Positions 4,104 to 58,265 of a stretch of DNA of 64,000 nucleotides are shown here, one piece after another. A program made the translations under genes and the position numbers. The DNA is from Microbacterium sp. Marseille-Q6648 (lineage in GTDB: Bacteria; Actinomycetota; Actinomycetes; Actinomycetales; Microbacteriaceae), in NCBI RefSeq assembly GCF_943181415.1, contig NZ_CALPBZ010000003.1, positions 310,001 through 374,000 on the forward strand, read 5' to 3'. The notes beneath the pieces are model-generated. The model was not told the origin of the DNA. It was given only the letters and a program-made list of their open reading frames with translations, and made no database searches. Within the stretch, counting starts at the first letter, position 1. Every line of letters begins with the position of its first letter.

Positions 4104-5339
4104 ATGAGCGAGTTCCTGCCCGTGCCCGGCCAGCAGACGGAGTCCTACGACGTCTCGCGCGCCCTCGACACCGACTACTACGCCGTGTTCTCCGATCTGA
4201 GTCCCGCCGAGCGCGAGGCATGGCAGCGGGCGCGGACGTTCGTGGACGAGATCCTCCCCGACATCGACGGGTATTGGGACCGCGGCGAGTACAACCTCGG
4301 CTTCGCGCGCCGCATGGGAGAGCTCGACCTCTTCACCGACGGCATCGACCACGCGGGCCTGACCCGCCTGTCCCCCCTGGCGGCGGGCCTGGTCAACATG
4401 GAGGTCTCGCGCGGCGACGGCTCGATGGGCACGATCCTGGCCGTGCAGGGCGGCCTCGCGCTGCGGACGCTGGCGCTGTTCGGCAGCGACGCGCAGAAGA
4501 GCGCCCACCTCCAGCCGCTGGCACGAGGCGAGGTGCTGGGCTCGTTCGCCCTGACCGAGCCCGATCACGGCTCGGACTCGGTCTCGCTCGAGACGCGAGC
4601 GCGGCGCGAGCCCGACGGCTCGTACGTGATCGACGGGGCGAAGAAGTGGATCGGCAACGGCGCCTCCGGCGGCATCACCTTCGTGTGGGCGCGGGTCGCC
4701 GCACCCGGTGATGACGACGACGGCGCGGTGCGCTGCTTCCTCGTCCCGCAGGACGCCGCCGGCTACCGCGGCGAGCCGATCCTCGCCAAGGCCTCGCTGC
4801 GGGCGATCCACCAGGCCCACATCACCCTCTCCGGTGTGCACGTGCCCGCCGACGCGCTCCTGCCCGGTGCCCGCTCGTTCAAGGACGCCTCCACCGTCCT
4901 GTACTCCACGCGGTCGGGCGTGGCCTGGTCGGCGCTCGGGCACGCCACCGCCTGCTACGAGGCGGCACTTCAGTACGCCCAGCAGCGCCAGCAGTTCGGC
5001 AAGCCCCTGGCGAGGTTCCAGATGGTGCAGGAGCGCCTGGCCCAGATGCTCGAGGAGCTGACGGCGATGCAGCTGTACTGCCGTCATCTCGCCGACCTCG
5101 AGGCCTCGGGCGGTCTGCGCCCCACGCAGGCGTCGCTGGCGAAGTACCACAACACCCGTGCGGCGCGTCGGATCGCGGCGACCGCACGCGACCTCCTCGG
5201 CGGCAACGGCATCCTGCTGCAGTATCGCGTGATGCAGCACATGGCCGACATCGAGGCCATCCACACGTACGAGGGCACCGAGAGCGTGCAGGCGCTGCTC
5301 ATCGGCCGTGACATCACCGGGATGAGCGCGTTCGCCTGA
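4104..5339 (+). CDS. Acyl-CoA dehydrogenase (glutaryl-CoA dehydrogenase-like)
   Basis: FAD flavoenzyme of 411 residues that oxidises an acyl-CoA to the enoyl-CoA. It carries the FAD-contact stretch GSFALTEPDHGSDS (about residues 150-163) and KKWIGNG (about 180-186). Near the C-terminus TYEGTESVQALLIGRDITG contains the catalytic-base region used by glutaryl-CoA-type members. No Shine-Dalgarno; the ATG sits six bases after a TACACT box. The long open frame upstream is a GC artefact. Exact acyl substrate cannot be told from sequence alone. Confidence 0.93.
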   Translation: MSEFLPVPGQQTESYDVSRALDTDYYAVFSDLSPAEREAWQRARTFVDEILPDIDGYWDRGEYNLGFARRMGELDLFTDGIDHAGLTRLSPLAAGLVNMEVSRGDGSMGTILAVQGGLALRTLALFGSDAQKSAHLQPLARGEVLGSFALTEPDHGSDSVSLETRARREPDGSYVIDGAKKWIGNGASGGITFVWARVAAPGDDDDGAVRCFLVPQDAAGYRGEPILAKASLRAIHQAHITLSGVHVPADALLPGARSFKDASTVLYSTRSGVAWSALGHATACYEAALQYAQQRQQFGKPLARFQMVQERLAQMLEELTAMQLYCRHLADLEASGGLRPTQASLAKYHNTRAARRIAATARDLLGGNGILLQYRVMQHMADIEAIHTYEGTESVQALLIGRDITGMSAFA

Positions 5340-43252: not shown

Positions 43253-43269
43253 ATACCCCTGAGGCGTAT
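43253..43269. promoter_or_regulatory. CsoR-type operator 1 upstream of copZ
   Basis: ATACCCCTGAGGCGTAT, an imperfect palindrome of the CsoR type (TACCCC-GGGGTA). Its last TAT begins the -10 box TATACA (43267-43272), placing it in the promoter spacer. Confidence 0.65.
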
Positions 43270-43284: not shown

Positions 43285-43299
43285 TACCCCCAAGGGGTA
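43285..43299. promoter_or_regulatory. CsoR-type operator 2 upstream of copZ
   Basis: TACCCCCAAGGGGTA, a nearly perfect CsoR palindrome just after the expected transcription start, 23 bases before copZ. Confidence 0.75.
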
Positions 43300-43534: not shown

Positions 43535-45807
43535 TGACCTCTGCGTCCGCGACCGGCGGCGGCCTCGCGGGCGCGCGCGTCGAACTCCAGATCGGAGGCA
43601 TGACGTGCGCGTCGTGTGCGGCGCGCATCGAGAAGAAGCTCAACCGGATGCCGGGGGTTGCGGCATCCGTCAATTACGCGACCGAGAAGGCACTCGTCTC
43701 GGTTCCCCCCGATGTCGACGCCGCCGCGCTCATCGCCGTGGTCGAGAAGACCGGATACACCGCCGCCGTCCCCGCTCCCCCGCGGAGCGAGCCCGCGGCG
43801 GACTCCGCGCCGGCCGAGGACGCCGATCTGACGAGGCTGCGCCAGCGCGTCATCGGGTCGGCGATCCTCTCGGTGCCGGTGATCCTCCTGGCGATGATCC
43901 CCGCACTTCAGTTCACGTACTGGCAGTGGGCGTCGCTGGCGCTGGCCGCCCCCGTCGTGGTGTGGGGGGCGTGGCCCTTCCACCGCGCCGCCGCGGTGAA
44001 TCTGCGCCACGGCGCGGCCACCATGGACACCCTCGTGTCGATGGGGGTCTCGGCCGCCTTCCTGTGGTCGCTCTATGCACTGTTCCTCGGCCACGCCGGG
44101 ATGCCGGGCATGACGCACGCGTTCGAGTGGACGATCCAGCGCTCCGACGGCGCCGGCGACATCTATCTGGAGGTCGCCGCCGGTGTGACGACGTTCGTCC
44201 TCGCCGGACGCTATTTCGAGCTGCGGTCGAAGCGCCGCGCGGGCGCCGCCCTGCGGGCGCTGCTGGACGTCGGCGCGAAAGACGCGGCGGTCCTGCGCGG
44301 CGGCGTCGAGCTGCGGGTTCCCGTGGCCCAGCTGCTCGTCGGCGACGAGTTCGTCGTGCGGCCCGGCGAGAAGATCGCCACCGACGGCGTCGTCGTCTCG
44401 GGATCGTCGGCGGTCGACGCCTCGACGGTCACCGGCGAGTCGGTGCCCGTCGAAGTGGAGCCCGGAGACCCCGTCGTCGGCGCGACGGTCAACGCCGGCG
44501 GCCGGCTGGTCGTCCGCGCGACCCGGGTGGGCGATGACACGCAGCTCGCCCAGATGGCACGGCTGGTCGAGCAGGCGCAGTCGGGCAAGGCCGACGTGCA
44601 GCGGCTGGCCGACCGGATCTCGGGCGTCTTCGTGCCCATCGTCCTGGTCATCGCCCTCGCGGCCCTCGCCGTGTGGCTGCTGCTGGGCTTCCCCGCCGCT
44701 TCGGCCGTGACCGCGGCCGTCACGGTCCTCATCATCGCGTGCCCGTGCGCCCTCGGACTCGCCACGCCGACGGCGCTGCTGGTCGGCACCGGACGGGGCG
44801 CGCAGCTGGGCATCCTCATCCGCGGCCCGGAGATCCTCGAGTCCACCCGCCGGGTCGACACCATCGTGCTCGACAAGACCGGAACCGTCACCACCGGGCG
44901 CATGGCGCTCGTCGACGTCGTCCCGGCCGCCGGTCAGGATCGCGCCGAGCTGCTGCGACGGGCCGGCGCGGTCGAGCACGCCTCGGAGCATCCGATCGCC
45001 CGCGCGATCGCCGACGCCGGCGGCGACCTGCCCGCGGTCGAGGACTTCCGCTCCCACGCCGGCCACGGCGTCACGGGCGTCGTCGAGGGCCATGCGGTCG
45101 TCGTGGGTCGCCGAGCCCTTCTCGCGGAGTGGGCCGTGGCGCTGCCCGCCGATCTCGAGCAGGCGATGACGGATGCCGAGGCGCACGGCCGCACGGCGGT
45201 GGCGGTCGCGTGGGACGGCACGGCTCGCGGTGTCCTCGTCGTGGCCGATCAGGTCAAGCCCACCAGCGCCGAAGCGGTCGCGCAGCTGCGCGCCCTCGGA
45301 CTCGAGCCGGTGCTGCTGACCGGCGACAACGCCACGGCCGCCGCCGCGATCGCACGCCAGGTCGGTATCGACCGGGTCACCGCCGAGGTGCTCCCCGCCG
45401 ACAAGGTCGCCGTGGTGCGGGCGCTGCAGGCCGAGGGACGGACCGTCGCGATGGTCGGGGACGGCGTCAACGACGCCGCCGCGCTCGCGCAGGCCGATCT
45501 CGGCATGGCGATGGGCACCGGCACCGACGCCGCCATCGAGGCCTCCGACATCACGCTCGTGCGGGGCGACCTGCGCAGCGCGGCCGATGCCGTCCGCCTT
45601 TCGCGCGCGACGCTCGGTACGATCAAGACCAATCTGTTCTGGGCTTTCGCCTACAACGTCGCCGCGATCCCGCTCGCGGCGCTCGGGATGCTCAACCCCA
45701 TGATCGCCGGCGCGGCGATGGCGTTCTCGAGCGTGTTCGTCGTCGGCAACAGTCTGCGGCTGCGGCGCTTCCGCAGTCGGAACCTCCCCCGTCAGGAGCA
45801 CTCATGA
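43534..45807 (+). CDS. copA: Copper-translocating P1B-type ATPase
   Basis: Cu(I) exporter of 757 residues. N-terminal metal-binding domain with GMTCASC (22-28), then eight membrane helices. The transport site CPC ([16 protein letters not shown]), TGES (actuator), DKTGT with the phosphorylated Asp447, the SEHPIARAI His-Pro motif and [16 protein letters not shown] are all intact. Late helices carry YN ([14 protein letters not shown]) and [18 protein letters not shown], the Cu(I) subclass signature. Overlaps csoR by 4 bases. Confidence 0.97.
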
Positions 45808-46157
45808 CACTCGAAGCACCGGCATCCACCTCGGTCGAGGCATCCGGCCCCGTCGAGGCCGACGCCGAAGAGCACGCCCACCACGGCTACATCACCGACA
45901 AGGCGAAGTACCTCAATCGGCTCAAGCGCATCGAGGGTCAGGCGCGCGGGATCCACAAGATGGTCGAGGACGAGAAGTACTGCATCGACATCCTGACGCA
46001 GGTCTCAGCGCTGACCTCGGCCCTCGAGGCCGTCGCGCTGGGGCTGCTCGACGATCACCTGCGGCACTGCGTGGTCGACGCCGCGCGCACCGGCGGTGCG
46101 GATGCCGAGGCGAAGATCACCGAAGCTTCGCAGGCGATCGCGCGCCTCGTGCGCTGA
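45804..46157 (+). CDS. csoR: Copper-sensing transcriptional repressor, CsoR family
   Basis: All-helical repressor of 117 residues. The Cu(I) ligands are visible as Cys60, His85 and Cys89, with the 25- and 4-residue spacing of the CsoR Cys-His-Cys site. [20 protein letters not shown] is the conserved DNA-side helix. The extra N-terminal 28 residues are Glu/Ala/His-rich (EEHAHHG). Last gene of copZ-copA-csoR, so autoregulated. Its last 41 bases overlap the convergent rarD gene. Confidence 0.95.
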
Positions 46158-55847: not shown

Positions 55848-56801
55848 ATGTCCGCCGACGACGCGACCGCGACCGCACCCGCCCTCTCGCTATACCGCGA
55901 GATCGACCGGGCGGAGTGGTCGCGGCTGGCGGCCGGGATGGCGCAGCCGCTCAGCGAGACCGAGGTCGTCCAAATCCGGGGCCTCGGCGACCGTCTCGAC
56001 ATCGCCGAGGTGGCGCAGGTCTACCTGCCGCTGTCGCGCCTGCTGTCGCTGTACGCGGAGGCGACGAAGCGCCTGGGCGACGACACGGCCGAGTTCCTCG
56101 GGGATGCCGCGGCCACGACCCCGTTCGTGGTGGGGGTGGCCGGTTCCGTCGCCGTGGGCAAGTCCACGATCGCGCGCCTGCTGCGCGAGCTCATGAGCCG
56201 CTGGCCCGGAACCCCCCGCGTGGAGCTGGTGACGACGGACGGCTTCCTCTACCCCAACGCCGAGCTCGAGCGGCGGGGACTGATGGACCGGAAGGGGTTC
56301 CCGGAGTCCTACGACCGCCGTGCGCTCGTGGCCTTCCTCACCGAGGTCAAGAGCGGCGCGGCCGAGGCGCGGGCGCCCTTCTACTCGCACATGCGGTACG
56401 ACATCGTGCCGGACGCCCACGTGACCGTGCGCCGCCCCGACGTCGTCATCGTCGAGGGCCTGAACGTGCTGCAGCCGCCGCCCACGCCGAACGACGTGGC
56501 GGTGAGCGACCTGTTCGACTTCTCGATCTACGTCGACGCCGACACCGACGACATCACCCAGTGGTTCGTGAACCGCTTCCTGGCGCTGCGGCGCGGGGCG
56601 TTCGCCAACCCGAACTCGTTCTTCAACGTGTTCGCTCACCTCTCGGACGACGAGGCGGTCGAGACGGCGCTCGGCTACTGGAACGACATCAACCTGCCGA
56701 ACCTGCGCGAGAACGTCCTCCCCACCAAGCATCGCGCCACGCTCGTGCTCGAGAAGGCCGTGGACCACACGGTCGAACGCGTGCTGCTGCGCAAGCTCTG
56801 A
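55848..56801 (+). CDS. coaA: Type I pantothenate kinase
   Basis: First step of CoA synthesis, phosphorylation of pantothenate; 317 residues. Walker A GVAGSVAVGKSTIARLL (about 95-111), TTDGFLYPNAELERRGLMDRKGFPESYD (about 126-153), YSHMRYDIVPDA and VIVEGLNVLQ are the bacterial CoaA signatures. It sits divergently from glmS. The gap after it holds the 51-bp tandem repeat. Confidence 0.97.
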   Translation: MSADDATATAPALSLYREIDRAEWSRLAAGMAQPLSETEVVQIRGLGDRLDIAEVAQVYLPLSRLLSLYAEATKRLGDDTAEFLGDAAATTPFVVGVAGSVAVGKSTIARLLRELMSRWPGTPRVELVTTDGFLYPNAELERRGLMDRKGFPESYDRRALVAFLTEVKSGAAEARAPFYSHMRYDIVPDAHVTVRRPDVVIVEGLNVLQPPPTPNDVAVSDLFDFSIYVDADTDDITQWFVNRFLALRRGAFANPNSFFNVFAHLSDDEAVETALGYWNDINLPNLRENVLPTKHRATLVLEKAVDHTVERVLLRKL

Positions 56802-56810
56802 GACGAGACC

Positions 56811-56973
56811 CGCGGCAGGTTCCGGCATCCGCGCCACATCGCGGCAGCCGAGTCACACCGCCGCGGCAGGTTCCGGCATCCGCGCCACATCACGGCAGCC
56901 GAGTCACACCGCCGCGGCAGGTTCCGGCATCCGCGCCATCGATCGGTGTAGCGGATGCCGCGAACTGCCGCGG
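56811..56973. repeat. 51-bp tandem repeat ending in a long hairpin (locus B)
   Basis: Units start at 56811, 56862 and 56913; the first two are almost identical. The third passes into a hairpin with 23-nt arms (56912-56934 and 56951-56973), mostly paired, and a 16-nt loop GCCATCGATCGGTGTA. It lies between coaA and the convergent Cys-rich gene, so it may also end both transcripts. Same design as 21874-22017. Confidence 0.88.
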
Positions 56974-57041
56974 TGGGAGTCGCGCGCCCGTCGCGAGCGG
57001 AACCGACAGCCGGCCCCGCCGCGGATGCGGACTGACGGGAT

Positions 57042-57206
57042 CTACCCGCGGGCGAAGAGCTTCGCGAAGAACCCGGACGAGGGCGCCTGGTCGTGGCCCT
57101 GGCAGCGCTGCGAGTTCGGGATGCCCCGCAGCACCTGGTCGACGTGCTGACCGCAACCGGCCCACGTGGTCTTTCCGCAGGTGCGGCAGCTGACGGCTCG
57201 GCACAT
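57042..57206 (-). CDS. Small Cys-rich protein, candidate copper-regulated
   Basis: Protein of 54 residues starting MCRAVSCRTCGKTTWAGCGQ, with Cys at 2, 7, 10, 18 and 35 and His at 21 and 38, then a basic/aromatic tail FFAKLFARG. The CxxC pair and further thiols could bind a metal. Homologues with the same CRxCGKxTWxGCGxH core are annotated only as hypothetical in actinobacteria, as far as I recall. AGGAGAG precedes the ATG. Its promoter contains a perfect CsoR-type palindrome between a TTCACC-like -35 and a TATTAT -10, the same layout as copZ. Function unknown; copper or zinc binding is inference. Confidence 0.85.
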   Translation of the reverse strand: MCRAVSCRTCGKTTWAGCGQHVDQVLRGIPNSQRCQGHDQAPSSGFFAKLFARG

Positions 57207-57254
57207 GGGTGCTCTCCTGTTCTGCGCGACGACGATCGTCCGCGCTACGTGGAG

Positions 57255-57260
57255 ATAATA
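57255..57260 (-). promoter_or_regulatory. -10 box for the small Cys-rich gene
   Basis: TATTAT on the minus strand, leaving a leader of about 42 bases; overlaps the CsoR-type palindrome by three bases. Confidence 0.55.
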
Positions 57261-57273
57261 CCCCCGGGGGTAT
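57258..57273. promoter_or_regulatory. CsoR-type operator (perfect palindrome)
   Basis: ATACCCCCGGGGGTAT, perfect over 16 bases. It fits the CsoR pattern better than either copZ site. It lies in the promoter spacer of the Cys-rich gene and about 36 bases upstream of the ppx/gppA -10 box. Confidence 0.75.
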
Positions 57274-57308
57274 CTATCGGTGAAATCGGCGGGGGGACTC
57301 CGCACCAC

Positions 57309-57314
57309 TACCCT
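57309..57314 (+). promoter_or_regulatory. -10 box for Ppx/GppA phosphatase (leaderless)
   Basis: TACCCT, 6 bases before the GTG at 57321. Confidence 0.4.
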
Positions 57315-57320
57315 TGGTCC

Positions 57321-58265
57321 GTGCGCTTGGGAGTCCTCGACATCGGGTCGAACACCGTCCATCTGCTCGTCGCCGACGTCCGGCCCGGCGGTCGGCCCCT
57401 CGCGGCGACCAGTCAGCGCACGGTGCTGCGCCTGATGCGCTATCTCGGACCCGACGGCGAGATCACCGACGAGGGTGTCGCCGCGCTCGTGTCCGCGGTG
57501 TCGGAGGCGCGCCGGGTCGCCGCCGCCGAGAACGTCCACGAGCTCCTCGCGACGGCGACCTCGGCCGTTCGCGAGGCCGCCAACGGCACCGAGGTCATCG
57601 CCCGGATCGAGGAGGCCCTCGGGCAGCCCCTCCAGGTGCTCGGCGGCGAGACCGAGGCGCGCTACACCTTCCTCGCCGTCCGCCGGTGGTTCGGCTGGTC
57701 GGCGGGGCAGATCCTGCTGTTCGACATCGGCGGCGGGTCGCTCGAACTGGCCGCGGGCGGCGACGAGCTGCCCGACGTGGCCGAGTCGGTGCCGCTGGGC
57801 GCCGGCCGCATGACCGTGCAGTTCCTGCCGGACGATCCGCCGGGCGCCGACGCGATCGACGCCCTGCGCGCGCACGCGGCAGGGGTGCTCGCGCCGGTCG
57901 CCGAACGCTTCTCCGCCCAGCCGCGGCCCGATCACGTCGTCGGCTCGTCCAAGGCGATCCGCTCGCTCGCCAAGCTCGCCGGCTACCCGGTGCCCGGCTG
58001 GTCGGGCATCGAGCGCATGGTGCTCCCCCGCAAAGAGCTCAAGGCGTGGATCCCGCGGCTCGCGCGCATCCCCGCCGACACGCGGCAGGAGCTGCCCGGC
58101 ATCACCGCCGACCGGACGTTCCAGATCGTCGCGGGCGCGGTGGTGCTGCACCAGGCCATGAAGGCCATGGATGTCGAGGAGCTCGAAGTCTCGCCGTGGG
58201 CGCTTCGCGAAGGTGTGCTCCTGCGCTACATCGAGTCGCTCAGCTGGAACGCTCCGGGCGCGTAG
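57321..58265 (+). CDS. Ppx/GppA family exopolyphosphatase
   Basis: Phosphatase of 314 residues of the sugar kinase/Hsp70 fold, acting on polyphosphate or pppGpp. LGVLDIGSNTVHLLVADV (about 3-20) and LFDIGGGSLELA (about 133-144) are the two phosphate motifs; ATATSAVREAANG has the catalytic region. The short length matches the actinobacterial single-module form. GTG start chosen for the family N-terminus and the -10 box; earlier in-frame codons are unsupported. Overlaps the GH32-like gene 3' end by 26 bases. Confidence 0.92.
   Translation: MRLGVLDIGSNTVHLLVADVRPGGRPLAATSQRTVLRLMRYLGPDGEITDEGVAALVSAVSEARRVAAAENVHELLATATSAVREAANGTEVIARIEEALGQPLQVLGGETEARYTFLAVRRWFGWSAGQILLFDIGGGSLELAAGGDELPDVAESVPLGAGRMTVQFLPDDPPGADAIDALRAHAAGVLAPVAERFSAQPRPDHVVGSSKAIRSLAKLAGYPVPGWSGIERMVLPRKELKAWIPRLARIPADTRQELPGITADRTFQIVAGAVVLHQAMKAMDVEELEVSPWALREGVLLRYIESLSWNAPGA

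Follow-up and report, generated by a model that had tools for sequence, protein, structure and literature searches.

A Small Cysteine-Rich Protein Gene of Microbacterium as a Probable Stand-Alone Member of a Persulfide Defence Regulon

The Small Gene and Its Promoter

The window analysed here, a stretch of 64,000 nucleotides from Microbacterium sp. Marseille-Q6648, contains on its minus strand a gene for a protein of 54 residues, five of which are cysteines (positions 2, 7, 10, 18, and 35). The gene lies between a coaA-like gene and a divergent gene of the Ppx/GppA exopolyphosphatase family (Table 1), and no sulfur gene adjoins it. The interval that separates the 3' end of the small gene from the coaA-like gene contains a tandem repeat (56810-56938; period 51, 2.5 copies, 98% matches). 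A first-pass annotation, made from the sequence alone, had reported a protein of this length with five Cys and no assigned function, and had proposed that it could be a copper buffer, chaperone, or sensor, controlled together with copZ by the CsoR encoded in the same window. The description of the gene holds, and the protein indeed remains below the cut-off of every Pfam and NCBIfam model, with no TusA- or DsrE-like match in either collection; it has a weak Pfam likeness to DUF702 (12.6 bits against a cut-off of 20.6). Our computational analysis found no evidence supporting a role as copper buffer, chaperone, or sensor.

Table 1. Features of the small-gene locus and of the copper-class features used for contrast (window coordinates).
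Feature	Position	Strand	Remark
54-aa Cys-rich protein gene (P0001)	57042..57206	-	ATG at 57206
Shine-Dalgarno-like AGGAGAG	57212..57218	-	read from sequence
Promoter TTCACC-18-TATTAT	57255..57284	-	operator in spacer, overlapping the -10 box
Operator ATACC-CCCGGG-GGTAT (ATACCCCCGGGGGTAT)	57258..57273		perfect 16-bp palindrome; exact match
Divergent Ppx/GppA exopolyphosphatase-family gene	57321..58265	+	probably not the owner of the operator
copZ operator 1	43253..43269		15-bp spacing, one mismatch; copper class
copZ operator 2	43285..43299		15-bp spacing; copper class
Copper-type CsoR	45804..46157	+	Cys and HxxxC kept

A promoter scan of the region 56750-57400 returned one promoter-like site only, the minus-strand TTCACC-18-TATTAT (57284-57255), and no terminator-like site was found in the same region. 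The perfect palindrome that had been noticed in the promoter of the small gene lies between the -35 and -10 boxes, and the scan agrees with the earlier reading that its final TAT forms the first bases of the -10 box TATTAT. When up to three mismatches are allowed, ATACCCCCGGGGGTAT occurs at this single place in the window; at the same limit, shuffled sequences gave a mean of 0.07 matches, and seven of 100 shuffles contained one. The distance from TAC to GTA in this operator (TACCC-N4-GGGTA) is 14 bp, and the site fits exactly the consensus ATACC-n6-GGTAT of the Streptomyces coelicolor repressor ScCsoR.

Because the operator ends only 47 bp before the start of the ppx gene, it might belong to that gene instead. 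We read 29 of 30 ppx loci from the genus (L231 was left out), and a site within 400 bp upstream, together with the small gene, is present in the locus of our own genome only, the other 28 having neither. The scan placed its sole promoter-like site on the minus strand, and among 39 named genera or groups there are 23 in which the operator accompanies the small gene. We judge ownership by ppx/gppA extremely unlikely. Since the other ppx loci read lack both, the small gene with its operator looks as if it had been inserted between the coaA-like gene and ppx.

A Family of Small Cysteine-Rich Proteins

Relatives of the 54-residue protein are present in 69 of the 149 genomes sampled from the genus and, when a part of the candidates was scored, in at least 43 of 346 genomes from the phylum. 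Ten residues are invariant in 110 diverse members (M1, C2, C7, C10, T14, G17, C18, G19, H21, and C35), and three more are nearly so (K12, W15, and V29). Ten aligned short members share a C35-x-C37 pattern, long members often have a tail like GFFARLFGR, and no C-terminal extension beyond 75 residues was seen in the family loci examined. Over 168 distinct family genes, the entropy at codon positions 1, 2, and 3 is 0.65, 0.53, and 1.25, respectively; this set leaves out loci in which no family gene was found by pattern (e.g., L035, L164, and L165) and genes whose first 60 bases duplicate those of another. The third positions vary approximately twice as much as the others, and the protein itself is therefore under selection.

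This conservation bears on the idea that the reading frame is a leader peptide that senses cysteine by attenuation. The product is short and Cys-rich, and Cys-rich leader peptides can precede actinobacterial sulfur genes. However, the protein is conserved, with invariant T, G, and H residues beside five spread Cys, and is under selection as a protein; the small gene is not followed by a sulfur gene on its own strand, and the scan found no terminator-like site in the region. A leader peptide is thus scarcely credible here.

Searches for known relatives gave little. Against Pfam, the 110 members produced two weak matches, each of a single member (DUF702, E 0.0032; DUF680, E 0.0068). A PDB search with a 13-row family profile gave nothing significant, the one chain returned being at chance level (E 0.33), and ten short members, two of them from virus contigs, had no family match in PHROGs. 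A literature search brought up nothing that we recognised as concerning the family, which does not imply that it is absent from print.

The family is also found on mobile elements. Seven IMG/VR virus contigs carry members (L240, L241, L242, L243, L244, L246, and L248), and two of these, L242 and L243 (both at 5001-5111), encode short forms of 37 residues at approximately 35% GC. L245, L247, and L249 duplicate L243, L242, and L240, respectively, and are counted once. A 63% identical copy lies unannotated in the phage record MT835623 (19139-19300), a "Bacteriophage sp." from human faeces. In PLSDB, 69 plasmid records matched; no gene is annotated under 38 of the 40 matches listed (the gene table is incomplete), and thus the gene may often be missed. 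It should be mentioned that a record titled as an Acidobacteria metagenome-assembled genome (L065/G491) contains three family genes and may be a misnamed or mixed bin.

Operator Spacing and Neighbouring Genes

The first-pass annotation had joined the small gene to copZ in one regulon, on the grounds that the copZ operator at 43253-43269 also runs into a -10 box, TATACA. That overlap is real, as is the CsoR in the window, which keeps the Cys and HxxxC copper ligands (a motif described in PMC4528141) and whose best NCBIfam match is RicR (138 bits, under the cut-off of 175). Two things had escaped notice: a second and better operator belongs to copZ, at 43285-43299, and the distance between TAC and GTA is 15 bp in the two copZ operators but 14 bp in the one at 57258. 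What stands is that the small gene has an operator of the CsoR-family type. What does not stand is its place in the copper regulon, and against this place speak the spacing, the neighbouring genes, the co-occurrence across genomes, and the presence of a separate, His-less repressor of the CstR type, as set out below.

Conservation of the palindrome upstream of orthologues, which had been suggested as a check, was examined across the family. A 14-bp site (TAC[CT]C-N4-G[AG]GTA) occurs within 200 bp upstream of 84 of the 168 genes, and the 15-bp form (N5) at none of them; the corresponding means in dinucleotide-shuffled upstream regions are 0.06 and 0.04. The median distance between the start codon and the nearest 14-bp site is 38.5 bp. 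Among named genera or groups, 23 of 39 have such sites of their own, at 50 of 86 genes, while none was seen at the genes of Agromyces (0/5), Corynebacterium (0/4), and Glutamicibacter (0/4). The available upstream sequence reaches 3 kb or more for 39 of the 84 genes that lack a site of their own, and for 29 of these 39 a 14-bp site is found within 5 kb (10 have none; the 15-bp control gave 0/39), as expected if the genes lie in operons. A 13-bp variant (TAC[CT]C-N3-G[AG]GTA), absent from the shuffles, is present at five family genes (L093, L131, L134, L146, and L058), four of which lack a 14-bp site.

The genome-wide operator search that had also been proposed separates the two spacings by their neighbours. 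The whole genome contains TACCC-N4-GGGTA at five places (two for the reversed-pattern control) and TACCC-N5-GGGTA at four (control, one), and the stricter TACCCC-N2-GGGGTA at three (control, none). The looser TACYC-N4-GRGTA gives 11 places and an equal 11 in its reversed control, so it reports background only. The four 15-bp sites belong to the csoR-copA cluster, copZ, a gene for a DUF305 lipoprotein, and a copper-ATPase gene. The 14-bp sites are at a rhodanese lipoprotein/thioredoxin-like pair, before a gene for a CoA-disulfide reductase/rhodanese (two sites), at 57258, and inside long open frames (one site). The first of these (C1:820733-820746, L005) lies between the rhodanese lipoprotein gene and a divergent thioredoxin-like gene and marks one more predicted member of the sulfur regulon.

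The same division is seen over 14 genomes of the genus, in which TACCCC-N2-GGGGTA occurs at 12 places (reversed control, five) and TACCCC-N3-GGGGTA at 25 (control, one). No copper gene adjoins any of the 12 places with 14-bp spacing. When 57258 is set aside, nine of the remaining 11 adjoin sulfur genes (rhodanese, thioredoxin, CoA-disulfide reductase, dioxygenase-like, or CstR-type repressor genes), two of the nine being neighbouring sites in one region. The other two adjoin genes of neither kind (L179, with a weak, distant TauE-like match only, and L184), and both come from genomes without the small-protein family. Among 21 sites with 15-bp spacing (20 of the 25 places, plus L001 of our own genome), 19 adjoin copper genes, none adjoins a sulfur gene, and two (L190 and L202) have no recognised copper gene beside them and may mark unlisted copper targets. 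Since the copper promoters were reached via the 15-bp pattern, these counts mean that neither pattern finds the genes of the other, and not that every copper promoter has 15-bp spacing. The small-protein family is present in six of the 14 genomes, all six of which have 14-bp sites, whereas 15-bp sites are present in 12. The overlap with the -10 box, in contrast, does not distinguish the classes: among the 84 family genes with 14-bp operators, 63 show a TATNNT overlap, and 12 of the 21 sites of the copper class show one on one side or the other; this geometry is therefore not diagnostic.

The neighbours of the family genes point in the same direction. Among the best-matching neighbours in loci over 5 kb (98 loci; shorter ones were left out, and L043-L062 were chosen by hand, favouring paralogues and tandem pairs), we counted CstR-type repressors in 56, CoA-disulfide reductase in 41, persulfide-dioxygenase-like proteins in 24, thioredoxin in 24, TauE in 16, rhodanese lipoprotein in 13, DUF4395 in six, CopA in five, and a CsoR like that of the window in none. 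A CstR-type neighbour is lacking in 42 of the 98 loci; in the named loci alone, counted by hand, it is present in 44 of 78. Rhodanese and/or TauE genes lie near the family gene in four of five plasmid stretches (pREL1, pA58H2, a Cnuibacter plasmid, and pC1a). Across the genus, a CstR-type gene (a score of at least 85 bits, the next best score being 62) is present in 67 of the 69 genomes with the family and in six of the 80 without it. The nominal Fisher value for this difference, 1.6e-32, makes it look stronger than it is, because the genomes are related and the counts are not independent. The exceptions are two genomes with the family and no strong CstR match and six with the reverse.

From these comparisons, the operator at 57258-57273 is assigned to the sulfur (CstR-like) class. 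The opposing account, in which the small gene is repressed by the CsoR of the window and its product serves as a buffer or carrier of Cu(I), can point to half-sites and a -10 overlap the same as at copZ, to a Cys-rich product, and to the csoR gene in the window. It can also point to a plasmid of Rhodococcus antarcticus on which a metal-sensitive regulator, a DUF4395 protein, a multicopper oxidase, and a sulfocyanin-like copper protein are encoded within 5 kb of the family gene, and to the published 14-bp consensus, which was drawn partly from copper sites. On the basis of spacing, neighbours, and co-occurrence, we nevertheless consider it very unlikely.

The published operators should be read with some care. 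The ScCsoR consensus, 14 bp from TAC to GTA, was built from inputs that included copper-type sites (those of Geobacillus CsoR and Mycobacterium tuberculosis RicR), to which it was called highly similar (PMC7533328). A number of copper CsoR sites have been described as TAC-X9-GTA, which spans 15 bp, and the copper site of M. tuberculosis CsoR has a quite different spacing (PMC3902906). In Thermus, a copper-type and a sulfur-type CsoR relative have separate sites and show little or no binding to each other's; that of the sulfur-type protein is a 20-bp palindrome (PMC10318464). These data are consistent with a rule of 14 versus 15 bp but are no proof of it; the basis for the rule is this genus with its kin.

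A Third Repressor in a Sulfur Gene Cluster

The search of the genome returned three CsoR-family genes. Those of the window and of the csoR-copA cluster encode proteins with the Cys and HxxxC copper ligands. The third (C1:1006324-1006611) retains both Cys but has Ala in the place of the copper His. It comes after the CoA-disulfide-reductase/rhodanese gene, behind the paired 14-bp sites, and the next gene encodes a 42-residue paralogue of the window protein. The same distinction is seen among the CsoR-family segments caught by sequence pattern in the loci examined: the copper His is absent in 87 of 87 distinct segments outside the copper-site loci and present in five of five inside them.

The protein of C1:1006324-1006611 is the most likely repressor of the small gene, as predicted from these sequence comparisons, and the CsoR of the window, which had been thought to read the site at 57258, is not the best candidate. 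A CsoR-family sensor of another kind, of the formaldehyde or nickel type, would be most improbable as the reader of this site. The C1 repressor does match the FrmR and RicR models weakly (36.6 bits against a cut-off of 133, and 34.3 against 175), but the only CsoR-family genes found are the two copper-type ones and the one in the sulfur cluster, and the neighbours of the relatives are sulfur genes.

Proposed Mechanism and Possible Roles

The gene at 57042-57206 is probably a stand-alone member of a persulfide (sulfane-sulfur) defence regulon. Four elements of this reading are shown by comparison at the level of sequence: the class of the operator, its overlap with the promoter, the presence among sulfur genes of a two-Cys repressor without the copper His, and the link between the family and that system. 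On this basis we propose the following sequence of events. A CstR-type repressor, most likely that of C1:1006324-1006611, would occupy the 14-bp palindrome, which reaches into the -10 box, and block transcription. Persulfide or polysulfide would then modify its two Cys and release it, in line with the persulfide release of repressors reported for S. coelicolor (PMC7533328) and Staphylococcus aureus (PMC5480029). The 54-residue protein would thus be made along with the CoA-disulfide reductase/rhodanese, the rhodanese, and the thioredoxin-like proteins, as the shared operators suggest.

What the protein does once it is made is a more tentative matter. In this small Cys/His (zinc-finger-like) protein, the five invariant Cys may handle sulfane sulfur; in the simplest case, the protein would be a carrier or acceptor that links rhodanese-type enzymes with the reductase or a dioxygenase. 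This role is plausible because a Bacillus cluster under a CstR-type repressor contains potential small carriers of sulfane sulfur: the DsrE- and TusA-like proteins of the Bacillus licheniformis YrkD cluster are so described (PMC9918477). We regard the carrier or acceptor role as a reasonable possibility, though less likely than not, and hold with similar reserve the broader suggestion that the family is a previously undescribed small sulfane-sulfur handler, with a Cys/His mini-fold that carries or senses persulfide. In other words, it might be the actinobacterial counterpart of TusA-type carriers, occurring both in sulfur clusters and as a stand-alone cassette that has a CstR-type operator to itself. 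Chromosomes and plasmids carry the family, as do a few virus contigs in the case of its short forms.

Alternatively, within the same regulon, the product could be a zinc store or a zinc-finger-like accessory protein that holds or delivers zinc under reactive-sulfur stress and moves no sulfur. The invariant C2, C7, C10, C18, H21, and C35 resemble metal ligands, as does C37 of the short members, and a zinc role is plausible because S. aureus mounts a zinc-limitation response to sulfide (PMC5480029). However, no zinc family is matched over its cut-off, the DUF702 likeness given above included, and we consider this role a possibility slightly less likely than that of a carrier or acceptor. An AlphaFold model of middling quality (mean pLDDT 74.5 and pTM 0.47; pLDDT approximately 82-84 over residues 1-30), with two predicted strands and short helices, does not decide between the sulfane-sulfur and zinc roles.

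Whichever role applies, an unnamed family gains a probable setting, the defence against reactive sulfur. It is also suggested that the copper and sulfur regulons of sister repressors in these genomes differ by a single base pair of operator spacing, a rule that is directly testable and can be used to find more members.

Comparison with Known Systems

In size and composition, the family resembles the mycobacterial metallothionein MymT, which has approximately 53 residues, is Cys-rich, and is likewise controlled by a CsoR-family protein, but is under copper control. The weak likeness to DUF702 (PF05142) covers residues 2-40 of the window protein below the gathering score, reaches an E value of 0.0032 in one of the 110 members, and is left as a lead.

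The copper CsoR regulon, as described for S. lividans (PMC3902906) and as seen at copZ in the window, shares with the small gene the TACCC/GGGTA half-sites and the overlap with the -10 box. It differs in its 15-bp TAC-X9-GTA spacing, in its copper genes, and in a repressor with both Cys and HxxxC. A likeness is also found in the cst operon of S. aureus with its repressor CstR and in the YrkD cluster of B. licheniformis, in which a two-Cys repressor controls sulfur-detoxifying genes (PMC5480029, PMC9918477). Unlike the potential carriers reported for the Bacillus cluster (PMC9918477), the 54-residue protein has no TusA- or DsrE-like match.

The sulfane-sulfur circuit of S. coelicolor, which comprises ScCsoR, the dioxygenase ScPDO, a rhodanese, and a sulfite transporter, is similar both in its operator (ATACC-n6-GGTAT) and in its two-Cys repressor of the CsoR family (PMC7533328). 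The sections of that paper on the circuit make no mention of the 54-residue family; rhodanese, dioxygenase-like, and TauE genes lie by many of the family members described here. Two differences from the S. coelicolor circuit as reported there can be pointed out: in Microbacterium one target stands alone between the coaA-like and ppx genes, and a gene for a CoA-disulfide reductase/rhodanese heads the cluster of the repressor.
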